In this document: piece by piece, positions 53,701 to 64,000 of the stretch | Position numbering within the stretch: position 1 is the stretch's first letter | Layout of the letters: every line of letters starts with the position of its first letter | Origin: Arctopsyche grandis | Taxonomy: Eukaryota > Arthropoda > Insecta > Trichoptera > Hydropsychidae | NCBI RefSeq assembly: GCF_051622035.1 | Contig: NC_135358.1 | Span: 21,332,501 to 21,396,500, forward strand | Reading direction: 5' to 3' | DNA length: 64,000 bases | Notes under the pieces: generated by a model | Told to the model about the DNA's origin: nothing | Databases searched by the model: none | Seen by the model: only the letters and a program-made list of their open reading frames with translations | Made by a program: the position numbers and the translations under genes

Positions 53701-56700
53701 ACCAAACCCAAAGCACTCATACAGTACAAACGAAAGAACTTATGCAAATAAATATAAAAGATAGTTTGCTTTCATCACGACCGGTTATCCTAAAACTGCA
53801 ACTTCACTTTCAATGAACATATTGATCCAAACATTAAATTTTGTATACATACAAAATCTAGACGAATTTCACCACCCTCGCTCATTAATGCGTCGCTTCT
53901 TTACTTCTAGTAGGCGTAGGTGACGTCACGCTCTCTAAAATATCGCAAGTGAAAGTAGTGGCACTGCAATCCTTTCCGAAAAGACATTTGACCTACTTCC
54001 AACTGTAAAAAATCCAATAAAAGACTTAGATTTGTTTAAAACCTCGATTATACGAATACGAATTAAAAAAAAATTCATTGCCTGTTTTTATATTACTCTG
54101 ATGTAGCAGGAGAATCTTGAGGGGGCGATTTTAGAAATTAGAAAAATAGGCGAGCTGAACGTGAAATGACAGGCAAATGCGCCATGACCTTGTATGCATG
54201 AATGTCACGTAGTGAAAGTTGTGACGTGCGTGATGTCATGGCTCTGTGTGGCCGAAAAGATATGGCTGGACAGTGACCAATTATGGCCATTCAACCGTCA
54301 AATTTTCTATTAGTAGCATACTGCACAGCCAGCTCAATAGTACCAACTTGATGATTCTAGTCAGAACGAAGAAAAATTACAGTGTTTCAGCTGACTTATT
54401 ATTATTGTGGCTATGTATTTTTACCACGATTTATCGATAACACTCAACTAATCGATGAATTTTAATGTAACGGAAAAGTCATTGTCAAATTTTCATAGTC
54501 ATTGTTACATTTTAATTCTTATACTGTATCCGTTTGTATACATTTATTAACAGAAAATCTAAAAACACGTAATTCACTAGTGTTTTGCCCATTGACATTT
54601 AACGAATGGTTTTGGAAAGACAGATATATATATATATAATTCATTATTACCAAAAAGCCGTATCTATCTCTTAATAATAAAACTAATTTTATCATTTCAG
54701 ATAGTCTCATTGTTCGCACAGAGAGCTTCCTGTTTCAACTATGACTACTCATCTGCGTGTACGCGACCCTATAGATCAGGAAGATCTAGCTCTCGAGTAG
54801 CACCATGTGATCTCAGCAAGCAATCTTACTGCAACTTGCCAGGATCTACTTACCCTTGGCATGCAGTCAGGCGCTTCGTCCACGAGAACCAAGGTCTCAT
54901 GAGGAGGATGTATGGTGACCAGAGACACATATCTGTCCTAAAAGCCGAAATTGAAAACAACGACTTGGATTCTGAAACATATCAAGTCCCACTAAGAGAT
55001 AGTACGTATGCCAGATACTCCAAAGATTGGGAAGTCCTGAATACAAAGTTCGTCTATTCAAAGAAACCGAATGGTCGTTCCAACGAACAGTATACTGTAC
55101 CACATTTCCGACCTGTTCAAACGACACCGACTACCACAACGACGACGAGCAAAACCGAAGATGCTTCTAGTAAAACTGATCAGAAAGCAGAAGTTCAAAA
55201 GCCTTCCAAGAAAGAAGCTGAAGATATTAAGATGGCAGCTTATAAGACATCCTATTTCGAAGACGAGCTGAACGTGCAGGAACTCAGTAAAACGAATTTA
55301 GAAATGAACAAGATAGAACCAGAGATAGTCACGTTGGAAGCTGCCATAAAGCAAAGCATCGAAGCAAATAGTGCTTACCCTGCTTACGGATTGGTCAATA
55401 AAAGTGTAACCACTCGCCCTATTACCTCAAATATAACCATTGAAACCTCGTCAACAGCAGATTCCACGACTTCTGAATACGTGACCCAAGATGAAACGAC
55501 GAGCACTCCCGATTTCGGAGAACAATCAACGGACACTGACGACGAAGATGGTGGATGGAAACCAGTCATGATGGATAAAATGTCTACATTACCATCGACA
55601 ATGTTATTCTCGCAAAGCGTCAAAGAAGAACAGAACAAGAATGACAGGATAGACTTAAACACAGAAGAGAACTACAAAGCACAAGAACAAAGTTCTGTCA
55701 GCAGCAATACTGCTGCCACGACACATCTAGAAGGACAATTATTTCAAGATGTTGTGCAAGAAGAAGCAAAACCCATTGTCAAACTCAGAGGAGTGTAAGT
55801 ATACGAATTTTAAACTATTCACATCCCTAAACTAAATATGTATATATCTAAAAATGTATATACATCAAAATTGCTCAGGTTGCATTAGAATTGGTTTAAA
55901 TGAGGGGGTATCAGTTTAAATAAATCAACTCGTAAATACTGTTTTATTCAGAGATCAGGGTGTGACTGAAGCTACGCATGGTAGAAGCTAAATTTCTTTG
56001 CATTCGATTTAATTATGGTTTTAAGAGATTGCTACCATGTTTCGTTTTTATTTACCATTATTTTAAGAATCAATTTAGGAATGATGGAAAATTCGCTTTT
56101 TGCTTTAAACCTTATGCCTTTAACATAGTACCTAGTGGCGTAACTACTATGACGCTGGGTATGCGGTACATGCAAGCCCTTAGGCTCGGGAGGATCTTCA
56201 AATATTAATACATATTTATGTATATTAAAAATAAATAAAAAATACAGGTAAACCAATTCGCTCCAATTGAAAACAGATAGAAGTATGTATAAAAAAATTC
56301 TACTTGTTCTGCGAACTTAAAATATTAGCATGAATAAGTTCATAAAATGTCTTTAAAATATGTAATTGCAGAATTTTCAAATTTACATATAGGCAATTTA
56401 GAATTTGTAAGTTTATTTATGTCATTAAAAACATATGGGGGGGCCCTTTGGTAAATTTTTCATGCGGGACAAATTTTTCTAGTTACGCCACTGACAGTAC
56501 CTTTGATAGTGAATCTCTGATGAATTAAAAAAAAGTATTTATAACTTATACAAAATAAAATTAACATTTTAGGAATGCTTGTCCGGTCAAAGAGGAAGTC
56601 GTAGCACCATTCTGGGCTAACAACACAAGAGGAGAAGTTCTGGCCCTGTTGAATCTTTATCCATTTGAACAATACGTCCATTGGGAAAAGTGCACACATG

Positions 56701-57068
56701 AACACAAGCAAATGTTCTGCCGAGAAGGATGCAGGTATGACAAATAAAACGTTTAATTAAAAATATATTCTGATCAATTTATTTATACTAAAAATTCATT
56801 CATGATAAATAACGATTTCAGATGCGAACAACAGTACCGACTGCATCGTCTGCTCGCCTACGATCCGAACAACGAATGCCGAGGCATATTCTCCGATTGG
56901 TTTCGGTTTCCGTCTTGCTGTGTCTGCAAATGCTACGACATGCCCCTCGAATTCAGAGTGACTTCGCGGAGTCCCAGAACCATAGAACCAGACATAGATG
57001 AAGCCATCAAAAAGGAAATGTATCAACAGGCCACATCTGACTGGTACACGATAAATTTAGACGATTGA
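45550..57068 (+). CDS. Spaetzle-family cystine-knot ligand (Spz3/Spz4 class, 523 aa)
   Basis: Four coding exons join in frame: 45550-45618, 54701-55794, 56573-56734 and 56822-57068. Exon 1 plus the start of exon 2 encode a signal peptide ([20 protein letters not shown]). The N-terminal part has paired cysteines ([31 protein letters not shown]) and the conserved [18 protein letters not shown] Thr/Ser/Glu-rich, probably disordered pro-region follows. The C-terminal domain carries the cystine knot: [59 protein letters not shown] and [13 protein letters not shown]. Spaetzle proteins are secreted ligands of Toll receptors, and this class resembles fly Spz3/Spz4. I cannot choose between them from memory. 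Intron 1 is 9.1 kb and rich in transposons. Convergent with Dlg5. Confidence 0.92.
45619..47690. other. Spaetzle-family gene intron 1, 5' part
   Basis: AT-rich with TACATATGTA microsatellites. No gene or clear mobile element. Confidence 0.5.
47690..47960. other. GC-rich island in intron 1, unassigned
   Basis: A 270-base block of high G+C inside AT-rich intron, with local inverted repeats (GATACCACATCTTGAGGTGGTATC; ACCAGTCCGAGG and CTGGTCTGGCTGGTC). It ends where a Helitron begins. It may be a retrotransposon or host-gene fragment. No protein family was recognised in any frame. Confidence 0.5.
47968..48319 (+). mobile_element. Complete non-autonomous Helitron with a GGGAAC minisatellite
   Basis: Starts TCTATATATGTATATAAAAA preceded by A, followed by TGAATGTCTGTGTG, a typical insect Helitron 5' end. 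It ends with a GCGTT...AACGC hairpin and TCGCTAG followed by T. Total 352 bases, no coding capacity. The open frames across it (NGNGNEN or TGTRTGTG) are products of the internal array. Confidence 0.85.
48195..48284 (+). repeat. GGGAAC/GAGAAC hexanucleotide array inside the Helitron
   Basis: About fifteen tandem GGGAAC units with regular GAGAAC variants, preceded at 48098-48124 by looser copies. Runs of three Gs every six bases make it a candidate G-quadruplex former on the plus strand. Confidence 0.85.
48320..49149. other. Spaetzle-family intron, no gene seen
   Basis: AT-rich. A perfect local inverted repeat around ATTATTAGACTTACTATCTA lies near 48660-48710. The 48930-49150 part is GC-richer and unassigned. 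Confidence 0.5.
49150..49300 (-). mobile_element. SINE group B fragment, inverted
   Basis: On the minus strand: GTGACTCGATAATTTCCTAT, CAGAGTTTGCCAATTTATCT, CAATTAGCCACC-like, TTTGTCACCTCTACTGG, then the group B tail TAATGGCACTATGGTAA. The tRNA head is missing. It sits back to back with the next SINE. Confidence 0.75.
49314..49700 (+). mobile_element. tRNA-derived SINE, group B
   Basis: The head TGGTTGCGTTAACGCTAACC contains a box-A-like region, followed by the box-B-like GGGTTCAAGCC. The core has GAAGTCGATTGTTCCCTATA, AGTTTGCCAATACATCTGAT, AAATTGGCAAATTTCACC and TTTGTCACCACATTTGAA. The tail is GGGATAAAACCCGTAATGGC then ATCATGGTAAA. Confidence 0.82.
50719..50797. repeat. (TA)n microsatellite abutting a SINE
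   Basis: About 79 bases of TA dinucleotides immediately before the SINE head CCAGCAGCG, so it may have seeded at, or been the target of, the SINE insertion. Confidence 0.95.
50798..51245 (+). mobile_element. tRNA-derived SINE, group A
   Basis: The head is strikingly tRNA-like: CCAGCAGCGTGGTCTAGTGG (box A) and GAGCTCGATTCCCG (box B). The core has GAAGTCGATCGTTTCTTATC, TTTTCCAATTTTTCTGATTT and GAAACGATTCC. The group A hairpin tail is ACCAGGAAGGCGCATTTGGG ... AAGCCTTCCTGGTATATTTG. It is older than the 10744 and 43311 copies. Confidence 0.82.
51246..52149. other. Spaetzle-family intron segment
   Basis: No gene recognised. The 51690-51980 part is GC-richer but shows no domain or repeat ends. Confidence 0.45.
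52150..52690 (+). repeat. Dispersed repeat family (copy 2; copy 1 at 24120-24535)
   Basis: Carries the same ordered landmarks as copy 1, ending TCGAATCGAAACGACTATTA, TAGTACGGCGAGCGTTATCT and ACAGACAGACAGACAGACAC. Differences are mainly microsatellite lengths and scattered base changes. Confidence 0.7.
52691..53344. other. Spaetzle-family intron segment
   Basis: AT-rich, with a TATG microsatellite at about 53223-53247. No gene seen. Confidence 0.5.
53345..53709. mobile_element. MITE with 8-bp duplication AAAGCACT
   Basis: The 365-base element is flanked by perfect AAAGCACT (53337-53344 and 53710-53717). Arms are inverted over about 50 bases: GGTGCAAACGATCGAAAAGC, GCCAG, then TGAACCACAGATTAAC, mirrored by GTTAATCTGTGGTTCAATCT and GGCGCTTTTCGATCGTTTGC. 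The outermost 3-6 bases of the two ends differ. The duplication length fits hAT, P or Merlin, and the terminal sequence does not decide which. Confidence 0.8.
53718..54700. other. 3' end of spaetzle-family intron 1
   Basis: No gene recognised. It ends with the acceptor ATCATTTCAG before exon 2. Confidence 0.55.
56133..56493. mobile_element. hAT-type MITE in spaetzle-family intron 2
   Basis: Left end TAGTGGCGTAACTACTATGA and right end ...CTAGTTACGCCACTG, the classic hAT CAGTGGCGTA terminus with one change on the left. Flanked by ATAGTACC (56125-56132) and ACAGTACC (56494-56501), seven of eight identical. It is 361 bases, non-coding, with a G-run (GGGGGGGCCC) near the right end. Confidence 0.82.
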
Positions 57069-57422
57069 AATCGATAAATTACATGAAATGTATATAGAGG
57101 ACAATACAAAAAAACTATTACACTTAAAAATTCAACAACGTCATTGTTGCCATTTATTTATTACAAGGCTTTTTTTATTCATTAATAATGAAGTTGACAT
57201 AAAGTGTATGTTGTAAATATTTTGTATAAATGTAATTTCAATATAATATAATATAAATATATAATCATTTTAAATTAGGCGACAATACTGTATGTATAAA
57301 GGCTAGTGATTGTAAATAGTAACACAACATATTTAATTACACTTTCGTGTCCGATCTGTATAAAGTAGTCGACTTTTAAGTATTTATTAATTATGTAAGT
57401 ATAATTTATATGTTGTAACCAA

Positions 57423-57428
57423 AATAAA
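57423..57428 (+). terminator. Poly(A) signal of the spaetzle-family gene
   Basis: AATAAA followed by a T-rich run lies about 355 bases after the stop codon. Earlier AT-rich variants are less canonical. Confidence 0.5.
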
Positions 57429-57449
57429 ATGTTTTTTTTACTGTTATAA

Positions 57450-59698
<2,249 letters not shown>

Positions 59699-60586
59699 TT
59701 ATAAAGATTTCCACAAGCCCTTTATGAGACCGATGGAAGGAGATCTTCTATGCCGAAGCTTCTCTTTATCTTCACAAGAGGCACGAAAACCAGTCAAAAA
59801 CTTCTCCTTGAAGTTAAATCTAGACGACGTTGGTCCAAGCAAAAATTGTTTCAGATCGTTGGTAAAACTTTTTCCCGTGTAGTTCGTGGGACTCTTCAGT
59901 GGCTCTTTGTCGTCTAAAAACGAAACTGATTTGACCGAGTGGACGGATCCCCTTCTGACTGTAACAGATCTGCTTCTCGATTCGTATGACGATTGAGTGG
60001 GAGTTAGACTGCTGCTTCTGCACACGCACCTGGAATAACTTCCTTTATTAGTGTCAGAAGCTGCACATAAAGAACAACAAGCCTGACAGTGGGCTCGGTT
60101 TCCGTAGTTTCTAGGAAGAGTTTTGGTTTTACGTTTCGAATCTTTTGGTCTTTCATATTCCTTGGAACCGACGTCGACAAGTTTTTCGTATATAGCATAA
60201 TCATCCTTATCCATGTCGTAATTTCTCGTTTCAGTCTTTTGGTTTGATTTCTTTGCTTTGTGTCTGTAGTTGATGTTTATTTGTGCCAATTTGCTAAGTT
60301 GCTTTAAAAATTCGTAATCGATCTCGAAATATTTACCATCCGGTTCTGAATAATAGCCTTGACTTTTATTTGCGTCTGATATGTACGTTTGTTTCTCAGA
60401 TTTTTTTCTAGAGCGTTTACGAATTTTTCTTTCGCCAGGGTCAGAATAATACATTATATCCGGATCAGAATAGTGCGTTTGCGGAGAAAGTAGGGGAGAA
60501 ACGTTATATTCACAATTACGACAAAAGGTTACAGATTTTGGACGATGGTGAAGAGGAGATTGGGGATGGGGAGTAGGTGGTAAAGG
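59699..60586 (-). CDS. dlg5: In-frame 295-codon extension after the Dlg5 stop (readthrough candidate)
   Basis: Directly after the Dlg5 TGA (60587-60589) the same frame stays open for 295 codons to the stop at 59699-59701. The first 44 codons precede the first ATG and include PLPPTPHPQSPLHHRPKSVT and CRNCEYN. The rest is basic and Ser/Tyr-rich, with three YS[D/E]P repeats (HYSDPD, YYSDPG, YYSEPD), a helical EIDYEFLKQLSKLAQI, a cysteine cluster (HCQACCSLCAAS ... CVCRSSS) and the end SPSIGLIKGLWKSL. The stop context is ACT TGA C, and TGA-C is known as the leakiest arrangement. The first AG downstream of the stop (60429-60430) is in the wrong phase for skipping the last exon. Alternatives are a separate gene starting at ATG 60452-60454, another splice form, or an assembly error. 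I recognise no domain in it. Confidence 0.6.
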   Translation of the reverse strand, partial: PLPPTPHPQSPLHHRPKSVTFCRNCEYNVSPLLSPQTHYSDPDIMYYSDPGERKIRKRSRKKSEKQTYISDANKSQGYYSEPDGKYFEIDYEFLKQLSKLAQININYRHKAKKSNQKTETRNYDMDKDDYAIYEKLVDVGSKEYERPKDSKRKTKTLPRNYGNRAHCQACCSLCAASDTNKGSYSRCVCRSSSLTPTQSSYESRSRSVTVRRGSVHSVKSVSFLDDKEPLKSPTNYTGKSFTNDLKQFLLGPTSSRFNFKEKFLTGFRASCEDKEKLRHRRSPSIGLIKGLWKSL

Positions 60587-63500
60587 TCAAGTTTGTTGGG
60601 ACGGAACCCATAAAGTTTTTCCTTGTTCTTCATCCACTGCCGCCTTTATTTGCGTGCATATATATGCTATATTTACACCAGCTGGAGCTATTTCAGCTGA
60701 AAACAAAAAAAAAAGGTATTAACAAACTATAATAGTAACATAGAGAAACAAGACGAATTTTCATATTACCTGAAATATATTGTTTATATTCAGTTTCCAA
60801 CTTAAGAGCATGTTCATACATTTCTTTAGCTGCTTTAGCAGAGACTTTCTCCATAGGATACCGAGTATCCCTAAATTCTTTGATTTGTTTCGTTGACTTA
60901 AATTTAATAAACAACACAATTGGATGAATTTGTTGTTTATGTAATTTTTCAATTGATGCTACGCTTATATCCAATACGCAATGAATTCCCTAAAAATAAT
61001 CAAACATTAATTCAAAAAGCTATTAAAACAACATAGATAATTAACAACGGAAAAAATATTTACCTTATCGGAAATGTCTTTTATAGACTGAATCGATATA
61101 CATTCGAAATAGTGTCCACGCTTTCTCGGTTCCAAGTATTTGCCTTGCGAGAGAGCACGTTCTATCGACGTAACCTGAATTAATTCAGGAGTTGCGCGAG
61201 AAAATTCTTGTGTGAAATCTGTGACCATTTTCTCAAGCACACACTCGCATAACGGACCCAAAACTACGACAGGCCTATGAGAAGGATCTGCAATATTCGA
61301 ATTTTTTATTTTATTATAAATATAATATTACGTAAACACAAACAAACACCGATTTATCAAAAATATGTCTCACAATTTAAACGTTCTACTCTTTGATATG
61401 AACAGAGAGGCAATTCTTCGTTGAGCGTTCCTGAATCACTCCACCACCCTAAATTAGTATTCGAAAACGAAGCTAGTTCTTTAGGATCTCTCTGTTTTTT
61501 CCTTCTAAAAAATGATCGCCTAGCAGCAGTAGAACCACGTCGAGCTTGACTACTATCGCCCCCTTCCAAAGATCCGACAGAACGTCTCAGTAATTCTTTG
61601 ACTCTACAATTGTAAATTATACAAATTAAAATCAACACCAAACAAAAATGAAATACATTTATAAATTTCGAGTACTCACTTGAATTTGCTAGGTATCGTT
61701 CCCCATTGTTGTTTAACACCTTTGTGATCCAAATTCCACGCTCTCCACAGCCCAGGAGCACCGTTAAACAAAGTATTATCGACGAATATTACTTCGTCCT
61801 TACGAAACCATAGCGAATGAGTGTCTACTGTTGTATCACCTCCACAAGACGCCAGATCGGCGTTTCTATCAAAACCAGTCCTTATATAAAAAGCATCTCC
61901 CGGTTTATCCTTTATTTCATGATACCGTTGCAAATCGTGCTTTGCCAATACACTAACCTATAACGATAAAGAAGAAATATTAATAGAAAACAATGCAACA
62001 GAATAAAATATATTAAATTAATGTCACGCTCTTACTTTATCTGCGGGACTAGCTAGCTCTAAAGCAGCTTGTTCAGCAGTTGCACGACGAAGATCAGTAT
62101 TATTATATTCAAGAATTTGATCACCAGTTCTCAGGCCTGCATGATAAGCCGGTGAATCAATTTGAACGCTGTGTACAAAAATTCCAACAGCATTACCTCC
62201 AACTAAGCTGATCCCCAAGTCTGAACTTTTCCTCATTTCAATCAATAGAAAGCGAGGTTCCGACAAGTCTTTACTATTTTGAGTTTGACGATTACTACTC
62301 ATGTCAGAAGAGGGGGCTTCCAATCTCAACGATTGTTGAGGACCGGGAGAATTCCGCGGTGTAGGTGAGCCAGAAACGGACACTTCGTCACCAGAGCCTT
62401 CTTCTGGTGATGAACTACCGGAATTTTCAAATTCGTTATATTTGTCTGGACTAAACTGAACTAACATGGTAATCGAGTTACCACATTGTCTTAAAACATT
62501 GGCGGCTAATTTATAAGTTGCGGACCTCATATTTATTCCACAAACTTCCAAAAGCTGATCTCCGACTTGAAGGCCGACTTGGCTAGCGAGCGAATGCTCA
62601 TTAACGGTCGACACGAAAACTCCCCCACTATTTGGTGGACATGAAATTTGAATACCTAAAGGCTGTTGACTTTTGTCAATGTGGACTCTCCTCAGCTCAC
62701 CAGGTAATGGTTTATTCGCCCAACCTACTCCGTAATAGTCTGGCATTGAATTTCGAGTGTTATTGTGAGGTAATTGTATTGTATGAGTACCTCTCCCAGG
62801 ACTTAAAATTTCAACATGAAATGTCGGCATAGGTGAACCTCTTTCAGAACTACGTTCAATAGAGCCCGTGCTCACTTTTCCAACAGAATTCTTCGATGTT
62901 ACACTCGGGTTTGAGGGTATCCGAAATCTTGGGTTTTCCTTCTTTCTAGGAAATGTCCCACCTTCATAACCATGATGATGATAGTGATCACTGCCAGCTC
63001 CTCTTCCACTTCTTATATTTGGTTGTATATCAGATGCATTGTGTGAGTGTGCTCCAAAGCCGCTGCATTCGTAGCTAACTCCAATGCTTTCGCCCGATTG
63101 GCTTTGGGTTATGGGTAAGGTTGGACTTCCCGGATGTGGGTAGCGAACTGGTGGCAGATGATGTGGATGCGGATTAACAAACGGAGGTACTATTCCAGCT
63201 CTGTACAACTGAGATTGTAAACGCGAATGTGAAGGTAATGTGCTAGTAATACCGATATTTAATCCACTGGTCAAACTTTCAGGTCCTAGGCTCTCACTAT
63301 CTGATGAATACTTACTTACAGGTTTAGACTTTTTTCCTGTATAATAATCTATGGTGTCTTTTCCTGGGTGAATTTTTAATGGAAAGTCCAAAGAATTAGG
63401 ATTTTTAGATAGAGATGGTAATGGTGGAACAAACTCTAAGGAGCTAGGACCTTTGTTAGAACCACCAATGAAATCCAGAGAATTAGGACTTTTGCTATCT

Positions 63501-64000
63501 CGCATTACAGATTGACAATCTAAAGAGTCGTCTGATGGATTTAAATTTCTACTTAATCTATTTGGTGTATTATCATGCTCAAAGTCGCTCATGTGTTTCT
63601 CTTTGAATTTTTCATAGCTCATCTGCACACTTATACTAGGAGGTGAAAAAGGGTCATGTACTGACAACGGGACAGTCTTGGGAAAGTGGGGTGTAGGATT
63701 AGCCGGAGATTCAATAGACTTATACACAGAATGTCTCGACGGAGTCGTAACATTGGTCAATGGAAGGTGACTAATTGGTATTGGATTAGAATTTCTATTC
63801 CACTGTGGCTCAGATTGTAAAAGTTTTGTTGGTGGACTGATCAAAATAGACAGTGGTGGTCTTTCCTTTTTGGATCGCGGTTGAACTATTGTGCCTGTTA
63901 GGTTTTGTTGAAATATCATATTGGATTTCACTTTAGGCCATGTACCCCTATTCTTTGAAGAATCGTAATTCTCCTGTAACGCATTGTCCTTGTTTCTACG
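60587..64000 (-). CDS. dlg5: Discs large 5 (Dlg5), C-terminal half; 5' part lies outside the window
   Basis: Dlg5 is a MAGUK scaffold at cell junctions, involved in polarity and vesicle delivery of adhesion proteins. Exons, high to low: 62036 to the window edge, 61680-61957, 61374-61603, 61064-61287, 60770-60989 and 60587-60696. The reading frame is open to base 64000 (SKNRGTWPKVKSN near the edge), so the N-terminal part, with coiled coil and earlier PDZ domains, is missing here. The large exon encodes a Ser/Pro-rich linker and two PDZ domains (QQPLGIQISCPPNSGGVFVS; DLGISLVGGNAVGIFVHSVQ). An SH3 domain follows (GDAFYIRTGFDRNADL ... FRKDEVIFVDNTL), then the guanylate kinase-like domain (HRPVVVLGPLCECVLEKMV; RKRGHYFECISIQSIKD; GIHCVLDISVASIEKLH). 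It ends GKTLWVPSQQT, like other Dlg5 proteins. As in MAGUKs generally, the kinase-like domain is likely a binding module. Confidence 0.93.

Follow-up and report, generated by a model that had tools for sequence, protein, structure and literature searches.

A 295-codon candidate readthrough extension behind the TGA-C stop of Dlg5 in Arctopsyche grandis

Stop-codon readthrough is itself known in insects, with hundreds of genes published and some of their tails longer than the one described here, a 295-codon open frame that directly follows the TGA stop of the Dlg5 gene in Arctopsyche grandis. The Drosophila annotation includes 328 genes with readthrough transcripts, and the annotated extensions may be as short as four residues or run past 1000 (PMC4528330); 851 candidates were listed for bumblebees, at least 306 of them estimated to be functional (PMC7826183); and of the 220 second open reading frames that scored high in Anopheles, 187 were retained as readthrough once alternatives had been excluded, while a single-genome test did not see abundant readthrough in honeybee and Tribolium, possibly for reasons of annotation (PMC5100048). 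As for context, the Anopheles and Drosophila candidates show an excess both of TGA and of a 3′ C (PMC5100048), and UGA is reportedly leakier before C than before other bases (PMC8417969). In fly ribosome profiling, UGA accounts for just 25% of readthrough events, and conserved extensions have a median readthrough rate of 5.2%, novel ones of 1.7% (PMC3840789). We compare the functional readthrough genes of Drosophila, Anopheles and bumblebee, as presented in the main texts (PMC5100048, PMC3840789, PMC4528330, PMC7826183), with the sequence of one genome alone, that of A. grandis (476 Mb, 189 contigs), in which Dlg5 lies within the 64,000-nucleotide stretch analysed here, hereafter the window (C4:21332501-21396500; plain positions below are counted within it). 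We conclude that Dlg5 is probably made partly as a C-terminally extended form through stop-codon readthrough at TGA-C.

Two described genes come closest. The Drosophila gene vvl/Dfr resembles Dlg5 as a developmental regulator whose leaky stop is followed by a long, disordered extension of the C-terminus, and differs in that its UAG is read as glutamine, at a rate of up to 50% in one tissue, and in that it encodes a transcription factor and not a scaffold; its readthrough is backed by mass spectrometry and CRISPR removal (PMC8417969). Drosophila Dlg5 (CG6509) shares the MAGUK architecture with its C-terminal PDZ, SH3 and GUK domains and serves as a polarity and Hippo/STRIPAK scaffold, but the sections of the papers that deal with its structure describe it as ending with the GUK domain and mention no extension (PMC4876392, PMC7815313). 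Because a fly Dlg5 transgene with a C-terminal green fluorescent protein rescued lethality (PMC4876392, PMC7815313), a tail in the fly, if there is one, is probably dispensable for viability. The literature searched brought no Dlg5 extension to light, and the main texts of PMC5100048, PMC3840789, PMC4528330, PMC4999894 and PMC7826183 do not mention Dlg5; the Dlg5 orthologue may already stand in the supplementary gene lists, which lay outside the scope of this search.

On the minus strand of the window, six exons (Table 1; the last counted to 60587, with its stop codon) join into a single open frame, in which PDZ (PF00595) and guanylate-kinase-like (GK; PF00625) domains both score above the Pfam cut-off. 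We take the gene to be Dlg5, following a preliminary description of the window; its 5′ part, where the N-terminal coiled coil and PDZ1-2 of a Dlg5 would be expected, lies outside the window. The presumptive SH3 region between PDZ and GK is covered only by long matches to ZO-1 and ZO-3, and the frame surrounding exon 61064..61287 gave no Pfam match when taken by itself. Relatives of solved structure include Dlg1, PSD-95 (a match to the GK domain) and ZO proteins. In the alignment of the GK domain to fly Dlg1, GKTLWVPSQQ stands opposite GPTIWVPSKE; two further Dlg1 chains align likewise, and all three chains have 1-4 residues only beyond the aligned part. The preliminary description had the Dlg5 frame ending in LWVPSQQT, at a family-typical C-terminus, followed by TGA C, and both the sequence and the Dlg1 alignment agree. 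Judged from this alignment, the TGA is the usual MAGUK C-terminus, an old stop position and no new nonsense change, so the tail is an addition and not one half of a protein split by a recent stop.

Past the TGA the same frame does stay open for 295 codons, as had been claimed, until a TAA closes it. When the tail was simulated 20,000 times with a first-order Markov model, no simulation remained open for so long, and the estimated chance of doing so is 1.2e-7, or 4e-9 at the noncoding stop rate. Our controls were 43 further open frames surrounding kinase and PDZ matches in the same genome, some of whose stops are probably intronic: their second open frames have a median length of 9 and a maximum of 124 codons, so that none of the 43 reaches 295, and a TGA-C context is found at two of the 43 first stops. 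When all frames of at least 200 codons were listed for the window and the 40 kb past its right end, the others were a frame at 54596-55795 beside a Spaetzle domain, a Dlg5 exon and four frames in two loci (L035 and L036), of which one encodes a retroelement polymerase, another a transposase, and the remaining two overlap on opposite strands. GC content in 150-base windows is 0.33-0.46 within the tail (0.403 overall) versus 0.15-0.25 at 59375-59674. The tail is present as a single copy in the genome, with the next listed protein match at E 3.49; a duplicate or processed copy was accordingly rejected.

To measure coding signal beyond openness we trained a phase model on the frame at 54596-55795 together with 39 other open frames, leaving out Dlg5 and the tail; codon-usage log-odds had been dropped as non-discriminating, the left-out Dlg5 itself scoring -0.147 bits/codon. 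The tail's own frame ranked first of six, with a margin of 0.117 bits/base compared with a mean of 0.112 for held-out Dlg5 (first in 5/5 windows), or 103 bits in total versus 84-157 in eight overlapping Dlg5 windows. The coding-over-noncoding score of the tail was +34 bits, a level that just one composite attained when 2,000 were assembled from stop-free noncoding windows, and the 885 bases past the TAA scored -270 bits or lower in all sense frames, partly on account of low GC. We also made 1,000 matched simulations, which preserve the tail's own dinucleotides and contain no in-frame stop. Seven of these were as high as the whole tail in codon-position asymmetry and 24 were as high in phase score; the phase score stands out in just 2/5 Dlg5 windows of equal size. 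The coding signal of the tail past openness is real but moderate.

It had been claimed that the first 44 codons of the tail lack an ATG and that no AG occurs for about 160 bases, and both statements hold: whichever frame is read, the earliest ATG comes at codon 45 (60454), in frame, and no AG lies between 60622, in the last exon, and 60430-60429, nucleotides 157-158 of the tail. Initiation at AUG therefore cannot yield codons 1-44, and since no AG precedes codon 53, GT-AG splicing cannot yield codons 1-52. The codon-position asymmetry of codons 1-44 was matched by 18 of 5,000 shuffles, 9 of 589 stop-free noncoding windows and 6/1,000 matched simulations.

The case for readthrough lies in the conjunction of these features, namely a tail in the Dlg5 frame, open all the way back to the TGA, a TGA-C context, codon asymmetry, and no other way into its first codons. 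Most Dlg5 translation would terminate at the TGA, while in a fraction of ribosomes a near-cognate tRNA would place an amino acid there, helped by the 3′ C, and these ribosomes would go on through the 295 codons to the TAA, giving an extended Dlg5. That ribosomes pass this TGA, how often they do so and what the tail does are all things that we infer. Selenocysteine at the TGA was rejected as a mechanism, since the Rfam matches in 56500-64000, taken up to E=1, include no selenocysteine insertion sequence.

Several results weigh against readthrough. No stable RNA structure was found in the three stretches folded at the site (z -1.2 at 100 nt, 0.4 at 150 nt, and 0.9), and a 3′ stem-loop was accordingly rejected as a stimulator, none being convincing; in the readthrough class as a whole, 3′ RNA structure is enriched and not required. 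Relatives of the tail were sought in viral and prokaryote contigs only, where 0/12 and 0/38 pattern matches were confirmed, and the coding signature of the second open frame comes from a single genome. The tail's margin over the other sense frames was matched by 1,606 of 2,000 stop-free noncoding composites, so frame margins under the phase model mostly restate openness. The score of +34 bits owes something to GC, given that 247/2,000 GC-rich stop-free composites reach it, although these average a GC of 0.446, above the tail's 0.403, and may include unmasked exons. In asymmetry the tail (23) falls below all five equal-size Dlg5 windows (30-55). For codons 1-44 the evidence is mixed, with asymmetry in favour and a trained model that does not separate them from noncoding sequence. 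They score -2.1 bits, with 180/589 stop-free noncoding windows as good and 502/1,000 matched simulations as high; their frame margin is equalled in 509 of the 589 windows, and an antisense frame scores higher there, in a model that is weak at this length (2/22 Dlg5 windows pass 0.05). Their asymmetry exceeds that of 20/22 Dlg5 windows, and an odd pyrimidine-rich sequence may contribute to it. Finally, 52 codons would remain open by chance with a probability of about 0.06-0.12.

In a first rival explanation the tail, or its 3′ part, would be an alternative C-terminus, produced when a Dlg5 donor is spliced to an acceptor that lies within the tail itself (exon starts at 60375 or 60060 are examples). 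The preliminary description had argued against this from the first AG, which would join the phase 1 donor at 60769 out of frame; that is correct for the first AG, but several later AGs are in frame with this donor, including 60377-60376 and the one giving exon start 60060, and so the argument stands for the start of the tail only. The acceptor-like site for 60060 has a pyrimidine fraction of 0.68, within the 0.37-0.89 of five real acceptors, and the last Dlg5 exon holds GT sites in phases 0, 1 and 2. Judging by these sites, a splice from 60769 to 60060 could give an isoform in which the end of the GK domain is exchanged for the tail from codon 176. Codons 1-52 would still be out of reach, and if splicing made the tail, the lack of stops all the way back to the TGA (with the chance given above) and the agreement with the Dlg5 frame (about 1/3) would both be accidental. 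Upstream of 60060, codons 53-176 carry a signal of their own (20/1,000 matched simulations as high in phase score and 22/1,000 in asymmetry), so the site at 60060 alone does not account for the tail, and we consider splicing unlikely as its source. We think somewhat less still of a separate 251-residue protein begun at the codon-45 ATG, made either from a transcript of its own or from a second cistron in the Dlg5 mRNA. This ATG is the first in any frame past the TGA and has an A at -3, and the trained coding signal sits in codons 45-295 (10/1,000 matched simulations as high) and not in codons 1-44. Such a start would make an accident of the open, asymmetric codons 1-44 in the Dlg5 frame, and reinitiation after a long open reading frame is rare in animals; one YSDP motif precedes the ATG while two similar ones follow it, a weak point because the motifs were picked by eye.

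A TGA that owes its presence to faulty assembly or sequencing, or that is edited from UGA to UGG by adenosine-to-inosine conversion, would place the tail in Dlg5 always or often. This is very improbable: the sequence rests on one assembly, but the stop coincides with the C-terminus common to Dlg1, and no double-stranded structure is predicted around the site. Least credible of all is a chance open frame in the 3′ untranslated region. The moderate coding signal past openness and composition is what such a frame might give, yet neither the simulations nor the controls produced one of this length, asymmetry as high as the tail's was rare among matched simulations, and GC drops at the TAA. Readthrough at the TGA, which the preliminary description had proposed for a fraction of Dlg5, thus stands as the best single explanation of the openness, the TGA-C, the MAGUK end and the lack of an ATG or acceptor at the start; it is probable, and splicing could supply part of the tail.

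In composition the tail is rich in Ser, Lys and Arg, with a charge and hydropathy balance of the disordered type in 10/10 windows. It begins with a proline-rich segment and contains a basic cluster (KRSRKK), and the repeats and cysteine cluster noted earlier are present as three copies of YS[D/E]P and the clusters CRNC and CQACCSLC. By eye, the differences between YSDP and YSEP are confined to third codon positions, but the motifs were chosen by their amino acids, which makes this observation circular, and it was left unused. No Pfam domain was found in the tail, and a match to a PDB entry at E 0.27 was taken as chance. Long, disordered, domain-free tails are described as typical of readthrough in the relevant sections of two surveys (PMC4528330, PMC4999894). 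The likeliest role is that of a mostly disordered regulatory tail which, through KRSRKK, the cysteines and the YSDP/YSEP motifs, would alter the localisation or partners of the polarity and Hippo scaffold in some tissues. Working nuclear localisation signals were found in three fly readthrough tails (PMC3840789), which makes changed localisation a reasonable first idea for the Dlg5 tail. A bolder and doubtful proposal is that the Dlg5 of this lineage is a dual-output MAGUK, whose regulated tail (KRSRKK, CxxCCxxC, YSDP/YSEP) would send this scaffold of polarity and Hippo/STRIPAK signalling elsewhere in chosen tissues, be it to the nucleus, a membrane or another site; the literature searched yielded no description of a MAGUK of this kind. 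Should the extension be real, standard annotation, by closing the gene at its first stop, would miss a second protein form of a conserved polarity scaffold, and the case would be a long, testable addition to insect readthrough and a handle on the function of such tails.

Table 1. Features of the Dlg5 locus and its candidate extension, in the order of transcription (positions within the window).
Feature	Position	Strand	Basis
Dlg5 exon with two PDZ domains; extends past window edge	62036..64000	-	Open frame; PF00595 6.6e-27, 2 stretches; donor GT 62035
Dlg5 coding exon, SH3 region by position	61680..61957	-	Splice sites, open joined frame; within long ZO-1 and ZO-3 matches
Dlg5 coding exon	61374..61603	-	Splice sites, open joined frame
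Dlg5 coding exon, start of GK domain	61064..61287	-	Open joined frame; aligns with fly Dlg1 GK, 3tvt
Dlg5 coding exon, GK domain	60770..60989	-	PF00625 32.2 bits (cut-off 25.2); joined frame; Dlg1 alignment
Final Dlg5 coding exon, C-terminus ...KTLWVPSQQT	60590..60696	-	Joined frame; aligns with WVPS/WVPA end of fly and mammalian Dlg1
TGA stop followed by C (60586), proposed readthrough site	60587..60589	-	Sequence
295-codon extension in the Dlg5 frame (P0001)	59702..60586	-	Open frame; length beyond chance; codon-position asymmetry
Tail codons 1-44, without ATG in any frame and without AG; readily explained by readthrough alone	60455..60586	-	Sequence
Acceptor-like site GCTTGTTGTTCTTTATGTGCAG; a splice here from donor 60769 would keep the frame, with the exon starting at 60060	60061..60082	-	Sequence; pyrimidine fraction
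Second stop, TAA; GC drops beyond	59699..59701	-	Sequence, GC windows

Around Dlg5, the neighbouring plus-strand frame carries the Spaetzle domain (PF16077), in keeping with an arthropod genome, and is convergent with it, and a long (AT)n microsatellite (58500-58602) separates this Spaetzle-type gene from Dlg5; a match to mir-297 within the microsatellite is sub-threshold (E 0.84) and probably a repeat artefact. On the 5′ side of Dlg5, about 12-21 kb past the right end of the window, lie the retroelement polymerase (L035 2347-5469, minus strand) and the transposase DDE_Tnp_1_7 (L036 1-1320, plus strand). Elsewhere in the assembly, a copy of COX1 stands at C1:36084329-36085669 (L068) on a contig of 42.7 Mb; it contains 11 TGA codons, is open under the invertebrate mitochondrial code, and is either a recent nuclear copy or misjoined mitochondrial DNA. 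Protein kinase matches in long open frames were also seen on the short contigs C45, C51, C52, C69, C76, C79, C90, C100, C157, C171 and C175 (loci L008, L020-L022, L024-L026, L028 and L030-L032). The GC content of these 11 loci is 0.25-0.30 versus 0.31-0.48 in the 19 chromosome loci used for training, and the short contigs are possibly DNA of an AT-rich parasite.

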